Shown: piece after piece, positions 38,413-62,071 of the stretch
Numbering within the stretch: the stretch's first letter is position 1
Layout of the letters: each line of letters starts with the position of its first letter
Source of the DNA: Chloroflexus sp. Y-396-1
Lineage (GTDB): Bacteria; Chloroflexota; Chloroflexia; Chloroflexales; Chloroflexaceae
Assembly (NCBI RefSeq): GCF_000516515.1
Contig: NZ_KI911784.1
Location: 1,458,881 to 1,522,880 of the forward strand
Direction: 5' to 3'
DNA: 64,000 bases
The notes under the pieces: model-generated
What the model was told of the DNA's origin: nothing
What the model saw: only the letters and a program-made list of their open reading frames with translations
Databases searched by the model: none
Translations under genes and position numbers: made by a program

Positions 38413-40974
38413 TCATCGATTAATGAGCGGAATGTATATCGGAAAGTCTGTTGATTGTCCGGGCGCGTTGCCATGGGTTGGGCTCGGCGTCAAAGTGACC
38501 GTCGGGCTGGCCGTCGCCGTCGGGCTGGCCGTCGCCGTCGGGCTGGCCGTCGCCGTCGGGCTGGCCGTCGCCGTCGGGCTGGCCGTCGCCGTCGGGCTGG
38601 CCGTCGCCGTCGGGCTGGCCGTCGCCGTCGGGCTGGCCGTCGCCGTCGGGCTGGCCGTCGCCGTCGGGCTGGCCGTCGCCGTCGGGCTGGCCGTCGCCGT
38701 CGGGCTGGCCGTCGCCGTCGGGCTGGCCGTCGCCGTTGGGCTGGCCGTCGCCGTCGGGCTGGCCGTTACACTGGTTGTCGAAGGTGTTGAGGTACTGGTG
38801 ACCGTTGGAATATAGATAGTGGTGGTTGGAGTGGGAGGTGGATCAGGCTCGCGCGGGAGATCAGTGCAGAGAACGTTAGCCCACAATGTTGCCATAGCAC
38901 TGAAACCATCGGCGTTGGGGTGGATATTATCTGCACTTCCATTGGTTGGATTCGTTGTAATGATTTGGCTTGGATTGGTTTCAAAATGAGTGTAGAAATC
39001 AGGCCCTAACCGGATGGGTGCACTATCATCGAGTTCATCAACCAGTTCAACGATACTGGCGTTAAAAGCCTGAGTAGTGGCGCGACGTGTTGCAGCCTGG
39101 GAAGCATTACCATCGTTTCGCCACGGCAGGCGGGCTACCCATAGCGCAAGATCAGGTTTATCCTGGCGGAGTGCATTAATCACTGCCCGCAAGTCCTCTT
39201 TGTAGACACTGGCCGGCATCAAGTTATTGTATATATTTGTCGTGGAGATTGCAGTTGCATCGTTTGTTCCCACCTGCAAGAGAATCTGTTCGGCACCTAA
39301 ATCGGTGACATGCTGACGATACACGTTCGCTTTACCTAGTACATTGAGGTAGCCGCTCGTTCCGACACGGTCTGATCCGGTAGTGTTCCCGTACAAATCG
39401 CGTGCGGTACGAATACCGCTCAACCCATCGTTGAGAATAAAGACCGGGCTGTTGAGACAAGTGGTTAGGAGATCATTCAGCTCGATCTGATAACCGGCAT
39501 AATAGATATTCTGGTAACTACCACTATCGGCCTGGGTATTATCTGATTGCGGGTAGTTACGACCATCGTTACTACGCGGGTAGCCACTGCCGGGGGATGG
39601 CGGACTGGTAAACGGATACCCATCACTCGATCCGGTAAGTGTTGATCCTGGCGGCAAACGGTAGAAAGCCCACTTCCCAGCAGTAATTGAGTCGCCAATG
39701 CTGATCAAAACTCGTCCGTAGCCCACTGGGTTGATAGTACGACTAACCGTTCCTGGTGCGCCATCGATCAGAAGGGTTGCCGTGACAGTATATTCCGCCC
39801 GACGTGGTAGCGTAACATTCGCACGGAAGCCATCATCGATTGTTGTATCATCAATGGTCTGCGAAAAACCGGGACCGTTAATCGTGAAACGCACTCCACT
39901 TAGTCCAGACGGTGGATCGGTAATAGTTGCCTGGAGACGGAGTGTTGGCTCAGTTTGAATATATGGTATTTGGAAGACATCTCTCGTTGTCAACGGCCCT
40001 GGAGCCGGTGATTGACCGGCTGGCAGATCAGCATCAACTATCAGCATACCGCTCACCGGATCAAGCGGGCGTGGTGATCCGTTGGCATCAAGAATTGCCA
40101 GGGTCAGCACCGGTTCGGCCTGGGCTGGTCGGATTAAAAAAGTACGTTCAGCCACAGAGCCGGGTGGTAACAGATGGAGATACTGCACAATCAGTTCCCC
40201 GCTCTCATCATCGTACTCACTGAGATAGTCAATACCCGGGGCGAGAACAACACCAGCCCGTTCAACCGTCACTTTTGCTCCACCTGACCAGTTGCTGATG
40301 CGTAAGCGCGGCGCCCGAACGACGCCATCGGGCGGGTTTACGGCAACCGCGTTAGTGGATGCTAACCCTGCACTGCTCGTAGTAGTCACACCGGCCAGAC
40401 CAGGATCGGTCACCATTTTCGGTAACTCATCGACTGCCCAGGCATCGAGATAGAGCAGCCAGTATTGCTGTGTCGGCACGCGCTTCACCAATTGGAGTGC
40501 GGCACCGGTTCCGGTATTAGCTGCCAGATAGGGACCAGAGAGATTTACCTGTTCACCATTAACAGTTATTGCAATTTGTCCACCGGCCCAAACCTCGTAG
40601 CTAATCGTGTGGTCAGCATCGGCATAGACGACCAGGGCACGCAACGAAGAGGCACGTACCAACTCTGGCGGTGCTGTCAACAGGCGATTATTGGCGAGAC
40701 GTGCCGTAACCAGCGGTGTGGCATCGGCGATCAGATTACGATTGCCGGACGGATCGCGGCGTAGATCGCGCCATGTCGTAATACCGGTTTGGGTAAATGT
40801 GAGTGCAAAGCGTCCGGGCATCGTGATGTTCACATCACCACTGATTGTTGTTTGCGCGATTAAGCCGGTATGAAAAGACTGTGCGGCGACCGGGGGCCGA
40901 TCAGCTCGAACGATTATGCCCCAGACCATCGTTACTACGAACGCGATCAGCAACAAACGACGGATAACTGGCAT
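38413..40974 (-). CDS. Secreted SGNH/GDSL hydrolase with Thr/Pro/Ser repeat region
   Basis: 853 residues. Signal peptide about 1-32. About 390 residues of beta-rich modules precede the SGNH domain, whose blocks are ISIGDSITAGK (nucleophile Ser, about 428), LQVGTNDAT (block III, about 569) and DNIHPNADGF (Asp-x2-His, about 683). Such enzymes remove acyl groups from glycans or lipids. After it comes a linker of TASPTA units, then the end FPIYIPLINR. The linker is coded by fourteen 18-base repeats. The short tail with Tyr-Ile-Pro recurs in the glycosidase-like protein at 46244. The gene lies beside the amino-sugar cluster, so a surface glycan is a reasonable substrate. Confidence 0.88.
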   Translation of the reverse strand: MPVIRRLLLIAFVVTMVWGIIVRADRPPVAAQSFHTGLIAQTTISGDVNITMPGRFALTFTQTGITTWRDLRRDPSGNRNLIADATPLVTARLANNRLLTAPPELVRASSLRALVVYADADHTISYEVWAGGQIAITVNGEQVNLSGPYLAANTGTGAALQLVKRVPTQQYWLLYLDAWAVDELPKMVTDPGLAGVTTTSSAGLASTNAVAVNPPDGVVRAPRLRISNWSGGAKVTVERAGVVLAPGIDYLSEYDDESGELIVQYLHLLPPGSVAERTFLIRPAQAEPVLTLAILDANGSPRPLDPVSGMLIVDADLPAGQSPAPGPLTTRDVFQIPYIQTEPTLRLQATITDPPSGLSGVRFTINGPGFSQTIDDTTIDDGFRANVTLPRRAEYTVTATLLIDGAPGTVSRTINPVGYGRVLISIGDSITAGKWAFYRLPPGSTLTGSSDGYPFTSPPSPGSGYPRSNDGRNYPQSDNTQADSGSYQNIYYAGYQIELNDLLTTCLNSPVFILNDGLSGIRTARDLYGNTTGSDRVGTSGYLNVLGKANVYRQHVTDLGAEQILLQVGTNDATAISTTNIYNNLMPASVYKEDLRAVINALRQDKPDLALWVARLPWRNDGNASQAATRRATTQAFNASIVELVDELDDSAPIRLGPDFYTHFETNPSQIITTNPTNGSADNIHPNADGFSAMATLWANVLCTDLPREPDPPPTPTTTIYIPTVTSTSTPSTTSVTASPTATASPTATASPTATASPTATASPTATASPTATASPTATASPTATASPTATASPTATASPTATASPTATASPTATASPTATASPTVTLTPSPTHGNAPGQSTDFPIYIPLINR
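38509..38760. repeat. Fourteen 18-base tandem repeats inside the SGNH gene
   Basis: Fourteen in-phase copies of GGCCGTCGCCGTCGGGCT from 38509 to 38760 (one C-to-T variant near 38736), coding for the six-residue unit Thr-Ala-Ser-Pro-Thr-Ala on the minus strand. Copy number is likely to vary between strains by slippage. Confidence 0.95.
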
Positions 40975-48031: not shown

Positions 48032-48702
48032 GATGTGCTGCATGTCTTGCTATGCATGTTTGACAGTCGGCAGAACGCTATGAGGTTTTCAACGTTTTCA
48101 CCCTGCCTGGCAGTAAGAGAGAATGGAGAGACTCAACCTATCCGCTGTGCGCATGCGGTGTGTAGATTCCCATACCGAGGAACGTTTGCGGTCAACACAC
48201 GTAGTATCACCGATTGTGCCTATCACCGTATTGTAGATGTGGATTCAACATCTCCCAGGCCCCCGCAAGTGAGGGGGGACAACGAAAGCGGAGGGTCTGG
48301 AGGATGGTGTGCTAGTATGCCGGCCAATGGCTGCTAGTCGCACACCGCACGACGTGAGCCAGTGGCCCGCATCCTGAAAGGTATGTACGGAACAACGGTA
48401 CGCCCCCGCCGACTCGCCTATCATGTCTGTTGCTACATCGGGAGGGATGGGTTCCACCCCTTACTGACCGCCTGCTGGGGCTTGGGGCAATAGTGTGCTG
48501 ATACGCCAACCGATGGGTTCTGGTCACGCATCTCGATGATCACGTGGCAGCCAGTCCACGTTCCATCAGTGCGCTTCCATCCTCATTCCCTCGCCCCCTG
48601 CCGCTCCTAAAGGGTCGAGGAAGGTGGAAGTTGGGCAGGTGGGACGCCCGCGCTAGATGGCGTGTTGACGGTGTAGACAATGGCTTCCCCTCTGTACACC
48701 GC
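48032..48702. other. Repeat-rich spacer upstream of rplI, left part
   Basis: About 670 bases without a gene. It has a REP-like copy at 48353-48375 (AGCCAGTGGCCCGCATCC) and a CTTCC/GGAAG hairpin near 48580-48630. Confidence 0.5.
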
Positions 48703-49031
48703 ACATACGGGCCGGAGGCCCGCGTACCCCGGTGACAACGGGCGGCAGCCGAAGCCCCAGACGGCGTGCCGCTTCCACATGCGGGCCGGAGGCCCGCGTA
48801 CCCCGGTGACAACGGGCGGCAGCCGAAGCCCCAGACGGCGTGCCGCTTCCACATGCGGGCCGGAGGCCCGCGTACCCACGTGGCAGCGAAGCCCCAGACG
48901 GCGTGCCGCTTCCACATGCGGGCCGGAGGCTCGCGTACCCAGGTGGCAGCGGGCGGCAGCCGAAGCCCCAGACGGCGTGCCGCTTCCACATGCGGGCCGG
49001 AGGCCCGCGTACCCCGGTGGCAGCGGGAGTC
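48703..49031. repeat. Five-copy tandem array of a 74-base REP-containing unit
   Basis: Cores (GGGCCGGAGGCCCGCGTACC) start at 48709, 48783, 48857, 48920 and 48994: spacings 74, 74, 63 and 74. The short interval lacks 11 bases (GGGCGGCAGCC). Each unit holds the GGGCC-nnn-GGCCC hairpin plus GACGGCGTGCCGCTTCCACA. Open frames on both strands over this array are an effect of composition. Confidence 0.9.
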
Positions 49032-56832: not shown

Positions 56833-58617
56833 GTGGTACATCATGCTGATGATGACACCATTCTTGGTAAAGCCTATGATGGACGCTTAGTACGTCGGTT
56901 GGCGAAGTATGTGATGCCCTATTGGCGGCAATTCATAGTGGCAATCTTACTGCTGATCGGGGCGATTCTGTCTGATCTCCTACCACCATTGCTGCTCCAG
57001 CGCACCATTGATGGCCCGATTCGGGCTGGCGCAGTTGATGGTGTCTGGCCCTATTTTGTAGCCTTCGTTGGTACACTGCTGATCAATTTTGTATTTCGCT
57101 ACAGTCATTCCTATTTCATCAACAGTGTTGGTCAGCAGGTGATGAAGGATTTACGGGTTGCGATCTTTCGTCACATTCAGTACCTGAGTCTCTCTTTCTT
57201 CAATCGCAATCCGGTGGGACGTTTAATCACTCGGATTACGAATGACGTTGACGCACTTAATGAATTTCTGACCCAGGGCGTAGTGATGATTGTAGCCGAC
57301 CTACTGACCCTGGTCGGGATTATCGTGGTAATGTTCGTGCTCAACTGGCGATTGGCATTGATCAGTCTGGCAACGCTGCCGGTGCTAGTACTGATAGTGT
57401 CAATCTACCAACGCTTTATGCGGGCTACCTACCGGTTAGTACGGCAGCGATTGGCCCGAATCAATGCGTTTCTCAGCGAACAGATCAGTGGGATACTGGT
57501 AACACAACTCTTCAACGCCGAGGAACGCAGTCGAATGGCGTTTGCCCGTTTGAGCGATGATTATATGCAGGCCAACATCCGGTCGGTGCTCATCTTCGCG
57601 ATCTTCATACCGTCGGTTAATCTCTTGGCCGCAATTGGTACAGCAGCACTGCTCTGGGGTGGGGGCAATGGTGTATTAGCCGGTTGGGCATCGCTCGGTA
57701 TGCTAGTCGCTTTCATTCAATATCTTGAACGTGCCTTTCAGCCGATCCGTAATCTAGCCGAGCGGTATACAGTCTTGCAATCGGCAATGGCCTCGGCAGA
57801 ACGGATTTTTGCAGTACTCGATACCGAGGCTGAGGTGCGCGATCCAGCACACCCCCGCTCATTGCCGACGCCGGTACGAGGCGAGATCGAACTGCGCAAC
57901 GTTGTGTTTGGCTACCATCCGAATGAGCCGGTATTACGCGGGATCAACCTCCATATCCCGGCCGGACAATCAGTTGCAATCGTGGGGGCAACCGGCGCCG
58001 GTAAAAGCTCATTGGTCGGTCTCCTCGCCCGCTTTTACGATGTTCAGGAAGGAAGCATTACCCTCGATGGGATCGACATTCGTGAGTTAAAGCAGGCCGA
58101 GCTACGCCGTCACATTGCCGCAGTGCCACAAGACCCGGTGTGTTTCAGCGGTACGATTGCCAGCAACATTCGTCTACACAACGATGCGATCAGTGATGAA
58201 CGGGTGCGCGCTGCTGCCGAAATGGTGGGTGCCCATCGGTTTATCGAACGCTTGCCAGGTGGATACAATCATGAAGTGCGTGAGCGCGGCGCCAATCTCT
58301 CAATTGGTCAACGCCAGTTATTGGCGTTTGCCAGAGTGATTGCCTTTAATCCCGAAGTATTACTCATTCTCGATGAAGCTACCAGCAGTGTTGATACCGA
58401 GACCGAGGCCCTAATTCAAACAGCTTTGACGCGACTGATGCGTGGTCGTACCAGCATCATTATCGCCCATCGGTTAAGTACTATTCGGCATGTGGATCGG
58501 ATCGTCGTGTTACACAAAGGTCGTGTGGTTGAAGATGGTACGCACGATGAGTTGCTGGCGCGGCGCGGTTACTATTACCGGTTGTATCAATTGCAGTTTG
58601 CGGGGATGACCGGGTAA
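56833..58617 (+). CDS. ABC exporter subunit with catalytic ATP site (half 2 of heterodimer)
   Basis: 594 residues from a GTG at 56833 with AAGGAG 6 bases upstream; an ATG at 56831 overlaps but is out of frame. Six membrane helices, then Walker A GATGAGKSSLVGLLARF near 390, Walker B LLILDEATSSVD with the catalytic Glu and IIIAHRLSTI with the H-loop His. Its signature is LSIGQ rather than LSGGQ. That altered signature would face the Walker site of subunit 1, so both oddities fall in the same composite site. Forms the exporter with the preceding gene. Confidence 0.92.
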   Translation: MVHHADDDTILGKAYDGRLVRRLAKYVMPYWRQFIVAILLLIGAILSDLLPPLLLQRTIDGPIRAGAVDGVWPYFVAFVGTLLINFVFRYSHSYFINSVGQQVMKDLRVAIFRHIQYLSLSFFNRNPVGRLITRITNDVDALNEFLTQGVVMIVADLLTLVGIIVVMFVLNWRLALISLATLPVLVLIVSIYQRFMRATYRLVRQRLARINAFLSEQISGILVTQLFNAEERSRMAFARLSDDYMQANIRSVLIFAIFIPSVNLLAAIGTAALLWGGGNGVLAGWASLGMLVAFIQYLERAFQPIRNLAERYTVLQSAMASAERIFAVLDTEAEVRDPAHPRSLPTPVRGEIELRNVVFGYHPNEPVLRGINLHIPAGQSVAIVGATGAGKSSLVGLLARFYDVQEGSITLDGIDIRELKQAELRRHIAAVPQDPVCFSGTIASNIRLHNDAISDERVRAAAEMVGAHRFIERLPGGYNHEVRERGANLSIGQRQLLAFARVIAFNPEVLLILDEATSSVDTETEALIQTALTRLMRGRTSIIIAHRLSTIRHVDRIVVLHKGRVVEDGTHDELLARRGYYYRLYQLQFAGMTG

Positions 58618-58634
58618 GCGATGGTTTGGGATGG

Positions 58635-60868
58635 ATCACCACAGAGAGCACAGAGCAATGCTTTGGTCGTTGCGTACCGTTGAGAAGCCGTGGGCATCCA
58701 ACAGTACAGTAACCGGTCGGGTACACCACAGAGAGCACAGAGAGCACGGAGCAGCGCGTTGGTCGTTGCGTACCGTTGAGAAGCCGCGGGCATTCAACAG
58801 TACAGTAACCGGTCGGGTACACCACAGAGAGCACAGAGAGCACGGAGCAGCGCGTTGGTCGTTGCGTACCGTTGAGAAGCCGTGGGCATCCAACAGTATA
58901 GTAACCGGTCGGGTACACCACAAGAGCACAGAGAGCACAGAGAAGCGCTTTGGTCGTTGCGTACCGTTGAGAAGCCGTGGGCATTCAACAGTACAGTAAC
59001 CGGTTGGGTACACCACAGAGAGCACAGAGAGCACGGAGCAGCGCGTTGGTCATTGCGTACCGTTGAGAAGCCGTGGGCATCCAACAGTATAGTAACCGGT
59101 CGGGTACACCACAAGAGCACAGAGAGCACAGAGAAGCGCTTTGGTCGTTGCGTACCGTTGAGAAGCCGTGGGCATTCAACAGTACAGTAACCGGTCGGGT
59201 ACACCACAGAGAGCACAGAGAGCACGGAGCAGCACGTTGGCCGTTGCGTACCGTTGAGAAGCCGTGGGCATTCAACAGTACAGTAACCGGTTGGGTACAC
59301 CACAGAGAGCACAGAGAGCACGGAGCAGCGCGTTGGTCATTGCGTACCGTTGAGAAGCCGTGGGCATTCAACAGTACAGTAACCGGTTGGGTACACCACA
59401 GAGAGCACAGAGAGCACGGAGCAGCGCGTTGGTCGTTGCGTACCGTTGAGAAGCCGTGGGCATTCAACAGTACAGTAACCGGTCGGGTACACCACAGAGA
59501 GCACAGAGAGCACGGAGCAGCGCGTTGGTCGTTGCGTACCGTTGAGAAGCCGTGGGCATTCAACAGTACAGTAACCGGTCGGGTACACCACAGAGAGCAC
59601 AGAGAGCACGGAGCAGCACGTTGGCCGTTGCGTACCGTTGAGAAGCCGTGGGCATCCAACAGTACAGTAACCGGTCGGGTACACCACAGAGAGCACAGAG
59701 AGCACGGAGCAGCGCGTTGGTCGTTGCGTACCGTTGAGAAGCCGCGGGCATTCAACAGTACAGTAACCGGTCGGGTACACCACAGAGAGCACAGAGAGCA
59801 CGGAGCAGCGCGTTGGTCGTTGCGTACCGTTGAGAAGCCGTGGGCATTCAACAGTATAGTAACCGGTCGGGTACACCACAGAGAGCACAGAGAGCACGGA
59901 GCAGCGCGTTGGTCGTTGCGTACCGTTGAGAAGCCGTGGGCATTCAACAGTATAGTAACCGGTCGGGTACACCACAGAGAGCACAGAGAGCACGGAGCAG
60001 CGCGTTGGTCGTTGCGTACCGTTGAGAAGCCGTAGGCATCCAACAGGGAGTAACCGGTTGGAATCACTACAGAGAGCACAGAGAGCACGGAGCAGCGCGT
60101 TGGTCGTTGCGTACCGTTGAGAAGCCGTGGGCATTCAACAGTACAGTAACCGGTCGGGTACACCACAGAGAGCACAGAGAGCACGGAGCAGCGCGTTGGT
60201 CGTTGCGTACCGTTGAGAAGCCGTGGGCATCCAACAGGGAGTAACCGGTTGGAATCACTACAGAGAGCACAGAGAGCACGGAGCAGCGCGTTGGTCGTTG
60301 CGTACCGTTGAGAAGCCGTGGGCATTCAACAGTACAGTAACCGGTCGGGTACACCACAGAGAGCACAGAGAGCACAGAGCAATGCTTTGGTCGTTGCGTA
60401 CCGTTGAGAAACCGTAGGCATCCAACAGGGAGTAACCGGTTGGAATCACCACAGAGAGCACAGAGAGCACGGAGGAGTGCTTTGGTCATTGCGTACCGTT
60501 GAGAAGCCGTGGGCATTCAACAGTACAGTAACCGGTCGGGTACACCACAAGAGCACAGAGAGCACAGAGCAATGCTTTGGTCGTTGCGTACCGTTGAGAA
60601 ACCGTAGGCATCCAACAGGGAGTAACCGGTTGGAATCACCACAGAGAGCACAGAGAGCACGGAGCAGCGCGTTGGTCATTGCGTACCGTTGAGAAGCCGT
60701 GGGCATTCAACAGTACAGTAACCGGTCGGGTACACCACAGAGAGCACAGAGAGCACGGAGCAGCGCGTTGGTCGTTGCGTACCGTTGAGAAGCCGTGGGC
60801 ATCCAACAGTACAGTAACCGGTCGGGTACACCACAGAGAGCACAGAGCAATGCTTTGGTCGTTGAGAA
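58635..60868. repeat. Tandem array of 23 copies of a 96-base unit
   Basis: The motif TGCGTACCGTTGAGAA starts at 58671 and recurs 23 times to 60776, at 96 bases (15 intervals) or 95 bases (7 intervals); a truncated copy ends at about 60868. Each unit has a CACAGAGAGCACAGAGAGCA part and an AACAGTACAGTAACCGG part. There are two versions of the second part, A (AACAGTACAG) and B (AACAGGGAG). No unique spacers exist, so it is not a CRISPR. Many long open frames on both strands follow from the 96-base period. The array fills the space between convergent genes, 18 bases after one stop and 25 before the other. Confidence 0.97.
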
Positions 60869-60892
60869 GAGAAACTCATTTCGACACAGAGG

Positions 60893-62071
60893 TTACAAAC
60901 GACGAGGAAGAGCAACCGTGAACGCACTCCCCTCGCCGGGGGTACTGCGTAGAGCAATTTGCCCGCCGTGTGATTCGACGATATGGCGCACGATTGCCAG
61001 GCCAAGCCCACTGCCGGGATGACCCCGCGCCAACGAGTGATCGACCTGATAGAAGGGAAGAAATATCTTTTCGTGCTCGCTGGGTGCAATCCCGATCCCG
61101 GTATCTTCGACCCGAATAATCAGGCGCGTTGGTTCATCACGGACGATCAAGCGTACTCGTCCACCTGGTTCAGTGTATTGGAAAGCATTTTCGAGCAAAT
61201 TACGGATCAGATGCTCGAAAGCGGAGCGATCAACTTCAATCGGTCGCATCTCCGAGAAGATGGCCTCAAACTGCAACTGAGCCTGAGCAGCACGTTCGCG
61301 GGCAGCAGCAACCAGTGGACGCAGGATGTCGAGTGGTTGGAGTTGAACAAAATGAAGAGAACGGTTCCGTATCTCTTGAAAATAGAGCAGATTGTTCAAC
61401 TGGCGCGCCAATACTTCGCTGCTACGCCGCATAACCCGTATCGCTTCTTCTTGTTGCGGGCTTAGTGGGCCAAGCATACCACGCTCGAAGAGTTCGAGAT
61501 AGCCAAGCAGCGAAGTCAGCGGCGTGCGTAATTCGTGTGAGAGGGTAGCCAGGAACTGATCCTTCATCCGGTCGAGGTCTTGTAGTTGGGCGTTAGCTTG
61601 TGTCAGTTCGCGAACCCGTGCTTCGAGCCGTTCGACCAACTTTTGATTGTATGAACGGAGTAACTCCGTCTCCATGACCTCGGGCAGACGTTCACGTCGA
61701 CCCTCAATGAACTCGGCGATCTGGGCTGGAAGTGCACGCGCATCAATTGGTTTACTCAGATACCCATCACACCCGGCGACTAATGCTCGTTCACGTGCTC
61801 CTGGCGAAGCATCGGCGGTCAGGGCAATAATTGGCACATCGCGCATATGAGGCAGTGAACGTAAACGGGTAGTAGTCTCGTAGCCATCGAGGCCGGGAAT
61901 ACCAAGATCAACTAATACCAGCGCCGGATGACTGGTGCGAGCCAGTGCTAATCCACCTGGACCATCTTCGGCGATCATGACCTGATAACCGCGCGCACTC
62001 AGCACGCGCTGTACTAGGCGCTGATTATCGGGATTATCTTCGATATACAGGATTTGTGGCAACTGGTTCAT
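60893..62071 (-). CDS. Receiver-histidine kinase hybrid
   Basis: 392 residues. Unusual order: receiver first (ILYIEDNPDNQRLVQ, phospho-Asp in LVLVDLGIPGLDGYE near 53, Lys in GYLSKPIDARAL near 108), a coiled-coil linker (LVERLEARVRELTQANAQLQ), then HisKA with ATLSHELRTPLTSLLGY near 178 and the ATPase domain with NLLENAFQYTEPGG, DTGIGIAP, GSGLGLAIVRHIVESHGG. No membrane segment, so cytoplasmic. Its start overlaps the stop of the next gene by 4 bases (ATGA), so the upstream membrane kinase probably feeds its receiver. Confidence 0.92.
   Translation of the reverse strand: MNQLPQILYIEDNPDNQRLVQRVLSARGYQVMIAEDGPGGLALARTSHPALVLVDLGIPGLDGYETTTRLRSLPHMRDVPIIALTADASPGARERALVAGCDGYLSKPIDARALPAQIAEFIEGRRERLPEVMETELLRSYNQKLVERLEARVRELTQANAQLQDLDRMKDQFLATLSHELRTPLTSLLGYLELFERGMLGPLSPQQEEAIRVMRRSSEVLARQLNNLLYFQEIRNRSLHFVQLQPLDILRPLVAAARERAAQAQLQFEAIFSEMRPIEVDRSAFEHLIRNLLENAFQYTEPGGRVRLIVRDEPTRLIIRVEDTGIGIAPSEHEKIFLPFYQVDHSLARGHPGSGLGLAIVRHIVESHGGQIALRSTPGEGSAFTVALPRRL

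Follow-up and report, generated by a model that had tools for sequence, protein, structure and literature searches.

BIMEs are dispersed extragenic palindromes that occur in tandem clusters together with flanking DNA, and the array analyzed here can be likened to them. In CRISPR arrays, a short constant part alternates with other DNA. Among prokaryotes, non-coding satellite families with long units are reported to be rare and of unsettled origin (PMC6749651). In the parts of that survey considered here, non-coding families with long repeats are named only for Leptospira interrogans and Methanocella conradii, a table gives 76 satellites for Chloroflexus aurantiacus, and the authors infer that satellites transpose by a mechanism that is unknown (PMC6749651). 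For the REPIN clusters of Pseudomonas fluorescens SBW25, a separate cluster-forming mechanism is inferred in the sections of PMC3116915 considered here. Here, we describe a genome in which many arrays have only a short dispersed arm in common and in which the interior of one MITE was multiplied after the insertion. These arm-sharing arrays and this MITE allow the emergence of a bacterial satellite to be followed stage by stage and tested.

A tandem array between two convergent genes

We analyzed a stretch of 64,000 nucleotides, referred to as the window, and the genome from which it derives (G000, the source genome). The first-pass annotation had reported 23 copies of a repeat and a partial one between the genes of an ABC exporter and a kinase, which both TRF and the cutting of the array into units confirmed. 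The features of the locus are as follows.

56833..58617, + strand: left neighbor, ABC exporter, 594 aa (Pfam ABC_membrane and ABC_tran)
58637..60869, + strand: tandem array, 23 complete units of 87-96 bp plus one partial unit (TRF, unit cutting, and alignment; right edge by eye)
58637..58723, + strand: first unit, 87 bp, without one 9-mer (unit alignment)
59490..59517, + strand: one of the 28-base arms, with which unit u10 starts, three CACAGAG-type words with 2-base separators
59518..59585, + strand: 68-base private spacer of u10 (genome searches and shuffle comparison)
59970..60636, + strand: stretch in which B units (u15, u17, u19, and u21) alternate with A units, with a two-unit period of 190/191 bases (unit alignment)
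60829..60869, + strand: last unit, partial, approximately 41 bases (unit cutting; end by eye)
60893..62071, - strand: right neighbor, receiver and histidine kinase, 392 aa (Pfam Response_reg, HisKA, and HATPase_c)

TRF placed the array at 58640-60847 with a period of 96 and 23.1 copies (score 3821) and also returned a period of 191 with 11.5 copies (score 3863). Cutting at CAC[CT]ACA[AG] resulted in 24 starts, from 58637 to 60829, and the 23 complete units measured 87, 94, 95, or 96 bp. The array covers approximately 98% of the inter-ORF gap (58618-60892), in which the genes of the ABC exporter and the hybrid histidine kinase are convergent. With up to two mismatches, CACAGAGNNCACAGAG was found 62 times in the window, compared to an expected number of 0.54. 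Other tandem repeats reported by TRF in the window are located at 38499-38766 (18 bp, 14.9 copies) and 48702-49027 (74 bp, 4.6 copies).

The order of the units was compared with that in random arrangements. (i) Adjacent units differed on average at 7.59 positions and units two apart at 4.52; the latter value was attained by none of 5,000 random unit orders, and the contrast between both values was attained by one of 5,000. Since units two apart resemble each other beyond what random orders produce, the two-unit blocks are real, and the amplification by such blocks that had been proposed from the sequence alone was borne out by this shuffle test. Alternation is also present on the left-hand side of the array (u03/u05 and u04/u06). 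(ii) In the lag table, u02 and u12 were identical and u03 and u13 differed at one position; a copy of a 10-unit block within the array is thus possible. (iii) The variant without one 9-mer is common to u01 and u24, as would be expected if the edges of the array were older than its homogenized middle.

In a typical unit, 68 private bases follow a 28-base arm that reads CACCACAGAG-AG-CACAGAG-AG-CACGGAG. Whole-genome searches with array DNA, scored for 40 of the 60 and 26 of the 61 candidates that a first look gave in this genome, retrieved the array itself and otherwise arm-sized matches with few adjacent bases. Of the unit, only the 28-base arm is hence dispersed and the remaining 68 bases belong to this array alone, a division that had been missed in the first-pass annotation. 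The similarity of the private spacer to 13 other array loci did not exceed that of shuffles. There is a single arm per unit, in which neither a second arm nor a MITE end could be recognized. Judged by eye, this array and that of locus L057 both start and finish with an arm.

Close matches to the kinase were present in all eight genomes of the genus, including the source genome. With the ends of the two protein alignments taken as its borders, the corresponding gap in the seven congeners has 199, 111, 25, 54, 35, 46, and 112 bp. The array is absent from all seven, and six of these gaps (25-112 bp) are without CACAGAG; the shortness of the gaps indicates that the array is particular to this lineage. 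The exception is the 199-bp gap of G003, the closest congener (kinase 93% identical), which contains two CACAGAG palindromes, arranged as a direct tandem at a distance of 93 bp. The whole unit including the arm does match this gap, as the arm alone predicts, whereas the similarity of the private spacer to the gap was not above that of shuffles (fraction, 0.33). A common origin with the G003 gap found no support in this spacer comparison, and the G003 palindromes may be an independent insertion. Elsewhere in G003, CACAGAG-bearing arrays were noted at L154:1642-2476 (89 bp, 9.4 copies) and L155:2208-2889 (240 bp, 2.8 copies).

The length of 6 of the 23 complete units is not a multiple of 3. Two long ORFs inside the array did not match any Pfam family at the cut-off, and one match of the array ORFs to DUF4191 remained below it. 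A gene for a repeat protein, the coding alternative that the first-pass annotation had set against its own proposal, was rejected on these frame breaks and on the lack of a Pfam family at the cut-off in the two ORFs. At the gathering score, Rfam identified four tRNAs as the only matches in the window, none of them in the array, and matches at the other loci were weak hits to miRNA models far under the cut-off. A simple scan for sigma-70 promoters in the array gave none.

Arms, arrays, and a MITE in the source genome

With up to two mismatches, CACCACAGAGNNCACAGAG occurs 326 times in the source genome (reversed control, 2); with up to one mismatch, there were 186 matches, whereas the counts in the other 40 family genomes ranged from 0 to 10. 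Exact three-word arms with 2-base separators number 137, MITE arms included, and the reversed control gave none. No palindromes with exact 10-base ends were found in this genome. Among the matches listed, a sample in which arrays are likelier to appear, we inspected 56 clusters in 53 loci. An end of a MITE of approximately 200 bp was found near 42 of them, and all 14 clusters without MITE ends hold a tandem array, with 2.1 to 23.1 copies and periods of 63, 66, 73, 75, 75, 77, 79, 80, 85, 90, 92, 96, 101, and 169. Similarly, among the 100 of the 137 three-word matches that were listed, all 10 non-MITE loci were arrays; two listed loci (near 2419 and 2582 kb) were counted as MITEs, since both ends are listed there.

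The ends of the MITE are GAGTCCACTGCAAAAA and GACTTCACTGCAAAAA, and CACAGAG arms are positioned just inside them. When the boundaries were allowed to move by as much as 3, 25 of the 37 distinct copies were flanked by direct repeats of 6 bp or more, compared to 2.0% of 1,332 mismatched flank pairs. The carrier of approximately 200 bp thus has the terminal inverted repeats and the 6-bp target duplications of a MITE. Its ends were matched 65 times in the source genome, and no inverted pair 0.4 to 8 kb apart, as would be expected of a longer partner that encodes a transposase, was found.

L064, L066, L070-L074, L076, and L125-L153: the 37 distinct MITE copies

One of these copies, L064, is a 998-bp MITE whose two ends are intact, as is its 6-bp target duplication, AAAGGT. 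Its interior is repeated (TRF, 166 bp and 5.4 copies), with the right arm fused to the left arm at ATCACC in five internal junctions, and each of the two outer-end strings is present once. Because the ends and the target duplication are intact and single while the interior is repeated, L064 shows that insertion came first and that the interior was multiplied in place afterwards. The ends of this MITE are absent from the window array and from the 60 bases next to it; with the search directed at the ends of the known MITE, neither terminal inverted repeats nor a target duplication were seen at the array. By analogy, L064 may serve as a model for the window array, whose own insertion step cannot be seen.

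A Y1 transposase gene that is RAYT-like by its looks was noted near 891 kb of the source genome (L159:1171-1833). It is followed by six direct copies of the palindrome GTAGCACGGGCTTAAGCCTGTGCT with a period of 40 (L159:1819-2042), and another copy is located just upstream. Within 1.5 kb of this gene, there is one CACAGAG-like match with up to three mismatches, inside the gene.

CACAGAG palindromes in other genomes

According to the first-pass annotation, a part of the unit resembles motifs in the intergenic DNA of many bacteria, and the CACAGAG part does recur in metagenome-assembled genome (MAG) contigs, in genomes of the phylum, and in other genomes. Three MAG contigs, with the titles Deltaproteobacteria, Planctomycetota, and Myxococcales, contain the exact 28-mer, which sits within palindromes there (by eye). 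Of 301 Chloroflexota genomes, 8 have palindromes with exact 10-base ends, as do one of the three MAG genomes (G329) and, with G329 counted, 3 of the 99 genomes searched in the phylum of G329; the reversed control was 0 in each case. CACAGAG palindromes therefore recur patchily in Chloroflexota and in the phylum of a Planctomycetota MAG. Of 13 genomes searched for three-word arms whose first separator is 1 base long, 7 had such arms (control, 0), namely, G229 (182 arms), G003 (65), G334 (47), and four others (14, 10, 4, and 2). The source genome has none of these arms, and G003 has none with 2-base separators. The spacing of the arm thus differs between these two genomes, and both spacings are mixed in G329.

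Covariation between palindrome arms was assessed across genomes with 29 palindromes from seven genomes, all of them among the matches listed, of which 23 could be parsed and 6 could not; two near-identical tandem copies (G011 and G047), the one palindrome listed for G024, and those of G331 and G334 were omitted. Separator lengths were equal between the arms in 23 of 23 and 22 of 23 cases, compared to 15.2 and 11.6 expected after re-pairing. No covariation was detected for separator letters (7 versus 7.3 and 5 versus 3.4) or for word variants (4 versus 6.1 and 11 versus 10.8). There was likewise none among 21 palindromes of G229 (10 versus 10.2, 5 versus 7.5, 13 versus 14.1, and 16 versus 15.1), in which separator lengths are constant and hence uninformative. 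Since lengths agree but neither letters nor word variants covary, we read these sequences as words that are maintained and not as a paired stem; spacing inherited within subfamilies would explain the equal lengths without selection. A selected base-paired hairpin was rejected on the lack of covariation, although separators of equal length are also compatible with a stem that has symmetric internal loops.

Twenty loci of G229, mostly picked for paired arms, contained 22 palindromes and 2 unpaired arms, and 20 loci of G003 retrieved at the same stringency contained 2 palindromes and 24 unpaired arms. For the 20 G229 loci, TRF lists no array with a period of at least 40; arrays are thus not a general outcome of arms. 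A direct repeat of at least 6 bp flanked 2 of the 22 solitary G229 palindromes, against 2.4% of mismatched flanks in the control, and a target duplication in excess of the control was not apparent. Searches of plasmids with a dimer of the window unit and of phages with the G003 palindromes gave no match, although sequences of this kind may be masked by the low-complexity filter.

Among the papers listed in the literature searches, we found no description of this palindrome family, which reaches 182 three-word arms per genome; this is weak evidence of absence. Term searches of the available parts of PMC4666352, on intrastrand-triplex repeats, retrieved neither CACAGAG nor Chloroflexus, and CACAGAG was absent from those of PMC3733652, on GTAG/CGTC REPs. 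A search with six 15/16-mers of the motif gave PMC3090145 as the sole match, with one 15/16-mer in a PCR primer. In the part of that article considered, two primers for a Bacteroides fragilis invertible promoter end in CTCTGTGGTG, which CTCTGTGTTC precedes or overlaps, and this may be chance or a further phylum.

Origin of the array and comparison with known systems

We consider it likely that the window array is non-coding satellite DNA that was seeded by the dispersed CACAGAG arm and then amplified locally. The selfish or neutral amplification suggested in the first-pass annotation is accordingly kept as the leading idea. The dispersed repeat would have placed arms in a short convergent gap, a step of which the congener gaps give a partial view. 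A tandem duplication could then have arisen through homology between two direct arms that flanked local DNA, after which unequal exchange or slippage during replication, acting repeatedly, would have expanded and homogenized the units, often pairwise. At least 13 further clusters of the source genome, with other spacers, look like outcomes of the same process, which appears to be visible once inside an intact MITE (L064) as one insertion followed by multiplication of the interior in place. We observed private units with a common dispersed arm, block-wise homogenization, and the in-place expansion of a MITE. The window array itself is probably without function, the spreading unit being the arm, and the CACAGAG family is perhaps mobile; no transposase for the arm was found in the source genome.

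Several other explanations were weighed against this seeding and local amplification. The words might be bound by a nucleoid, replication, or segregation factor, with arrays being selected as functional protein-binding sites. The words are indeed conserved while the separators are free, and matching lengths without covariation of letters or variants fit the recognition of words over a paired stem. We nevertheless regard a protein-binding array as unlikely, since exact-ended palindromes are patchy (8 of 301 phylum genomes), the spacing is quite different in the source genome and G003, there is no favored gene context, and none of the seven congeners has the array. That the array acts as a two-way transcription barrier between convergent genes, as had also been suggested from the sequence, is very unlikely. 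The convergent location and the RNA folding of two units, which is somewhat better than that of shuffles (z values of -2.16 and -1.79), agree with such a role, but a simple scan detected 0 intrinsic terminators in the array, compared to 1.3 in shuffles, and six of the seven congeners have 25 to 112 bp without CACAGAG at this position. Moreover, with the surrounding genes taken as longest-ORF guesses after masking of the element, the gaps holding CACAGAG clusters were tandem in 34 cases, divergent in 12, convergent in 9, and unresolved in 1, whereas the 31 control gaps comprised 15, 8, and 8, respectively. Convergent gaps were thus not preferred (9 of the 55 resolved clusters versus 8 of the 31 controls), and this proposal was not upheld.

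Membership in the REP/REPIN-RAYT system, in which palindromes are moved by an HUH transposase, is extremely unlikely, even though dispersed extragenic palindromes in tandem clusters with flanks are also described for REPINs in the sections of PMC3116915 considered. The arms read ACCAC.GAG.., and, by eye, the listed arms and palindrome ends have no GTAG or CGTC tag. The single Y1_Tnp match of the source genome has its own, different GTAG-type palindromes beside it, and an identity with REP/RAYT was rejected on this basis. An assembly artifact is scarcely credible. A single genome of the species was covered, but the assembly is one 4.89-Mb contig with 99.98% completeness, the unit variants are ordered and distinct, and further arrays with other spacers exist, although these arguments are no substitute for reads. 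A more far-reaching possibility is that CACAGAG word-palindromes are an undescribed class of elements that spans phyla, is mobile or prone to recombination, and is distinct from REP/RAYT, with 7-base words read by a protein, a spacing that has diverged into dialects, and the capacity to generate satellites through local tandem amplification triggered by the arms. We put this forward tentatively and consider it rather doubtful, as it is weakened by the mixed spacings of G329 and by solitary palindromes without target duplication.

The seeding and local amplification of the arm can finally be compared with the systems described. (i) In CRISPR arrays, as in the window array, a constant short part alternates with other DNA; the spacers of the window array, however, copy one another within the array and are not unique. 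(ii) The MITE of approximately 200 bp, with its inverted repeats and 6-bp duplications, carries CACAGAG arms, whereas the window array is without such ends; the MITE is a carrier and not the array. (iii) The CACAGAG arrays form tandem clusters with flanks and work like the REPIN tandem clusters reported in the parts of PMC3116915 considered, which are likewise derived from dispersed extragenic palindromes and include flanking DNA. They differ in sequence and in lacking the GTAG tag, and a link to a RAYT was not seen. In addition, the window units carry a single arm each, and the largest ordered cluster in those parts of PMC3116915 consists of four REPINs and a REP, compared to 23 units here. 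(iv) The window array is tandem, intergenic, and non-coding, with a unit of over 30 nt, and corresponds to a non-coding satellite as understood in the parts of PMC6749651 considered. The satellites of Leptospira and Methanocella described there are, like the arrays of the source genome, related non-coding long-repeat arrays scattered over one genome (PMC6749651). In contrast, the arrays described here have only the arm in common and their spacers are private, which argues for seeding followed by local amplification, as opposed to the satellite transposition inferred in PMC6749651.
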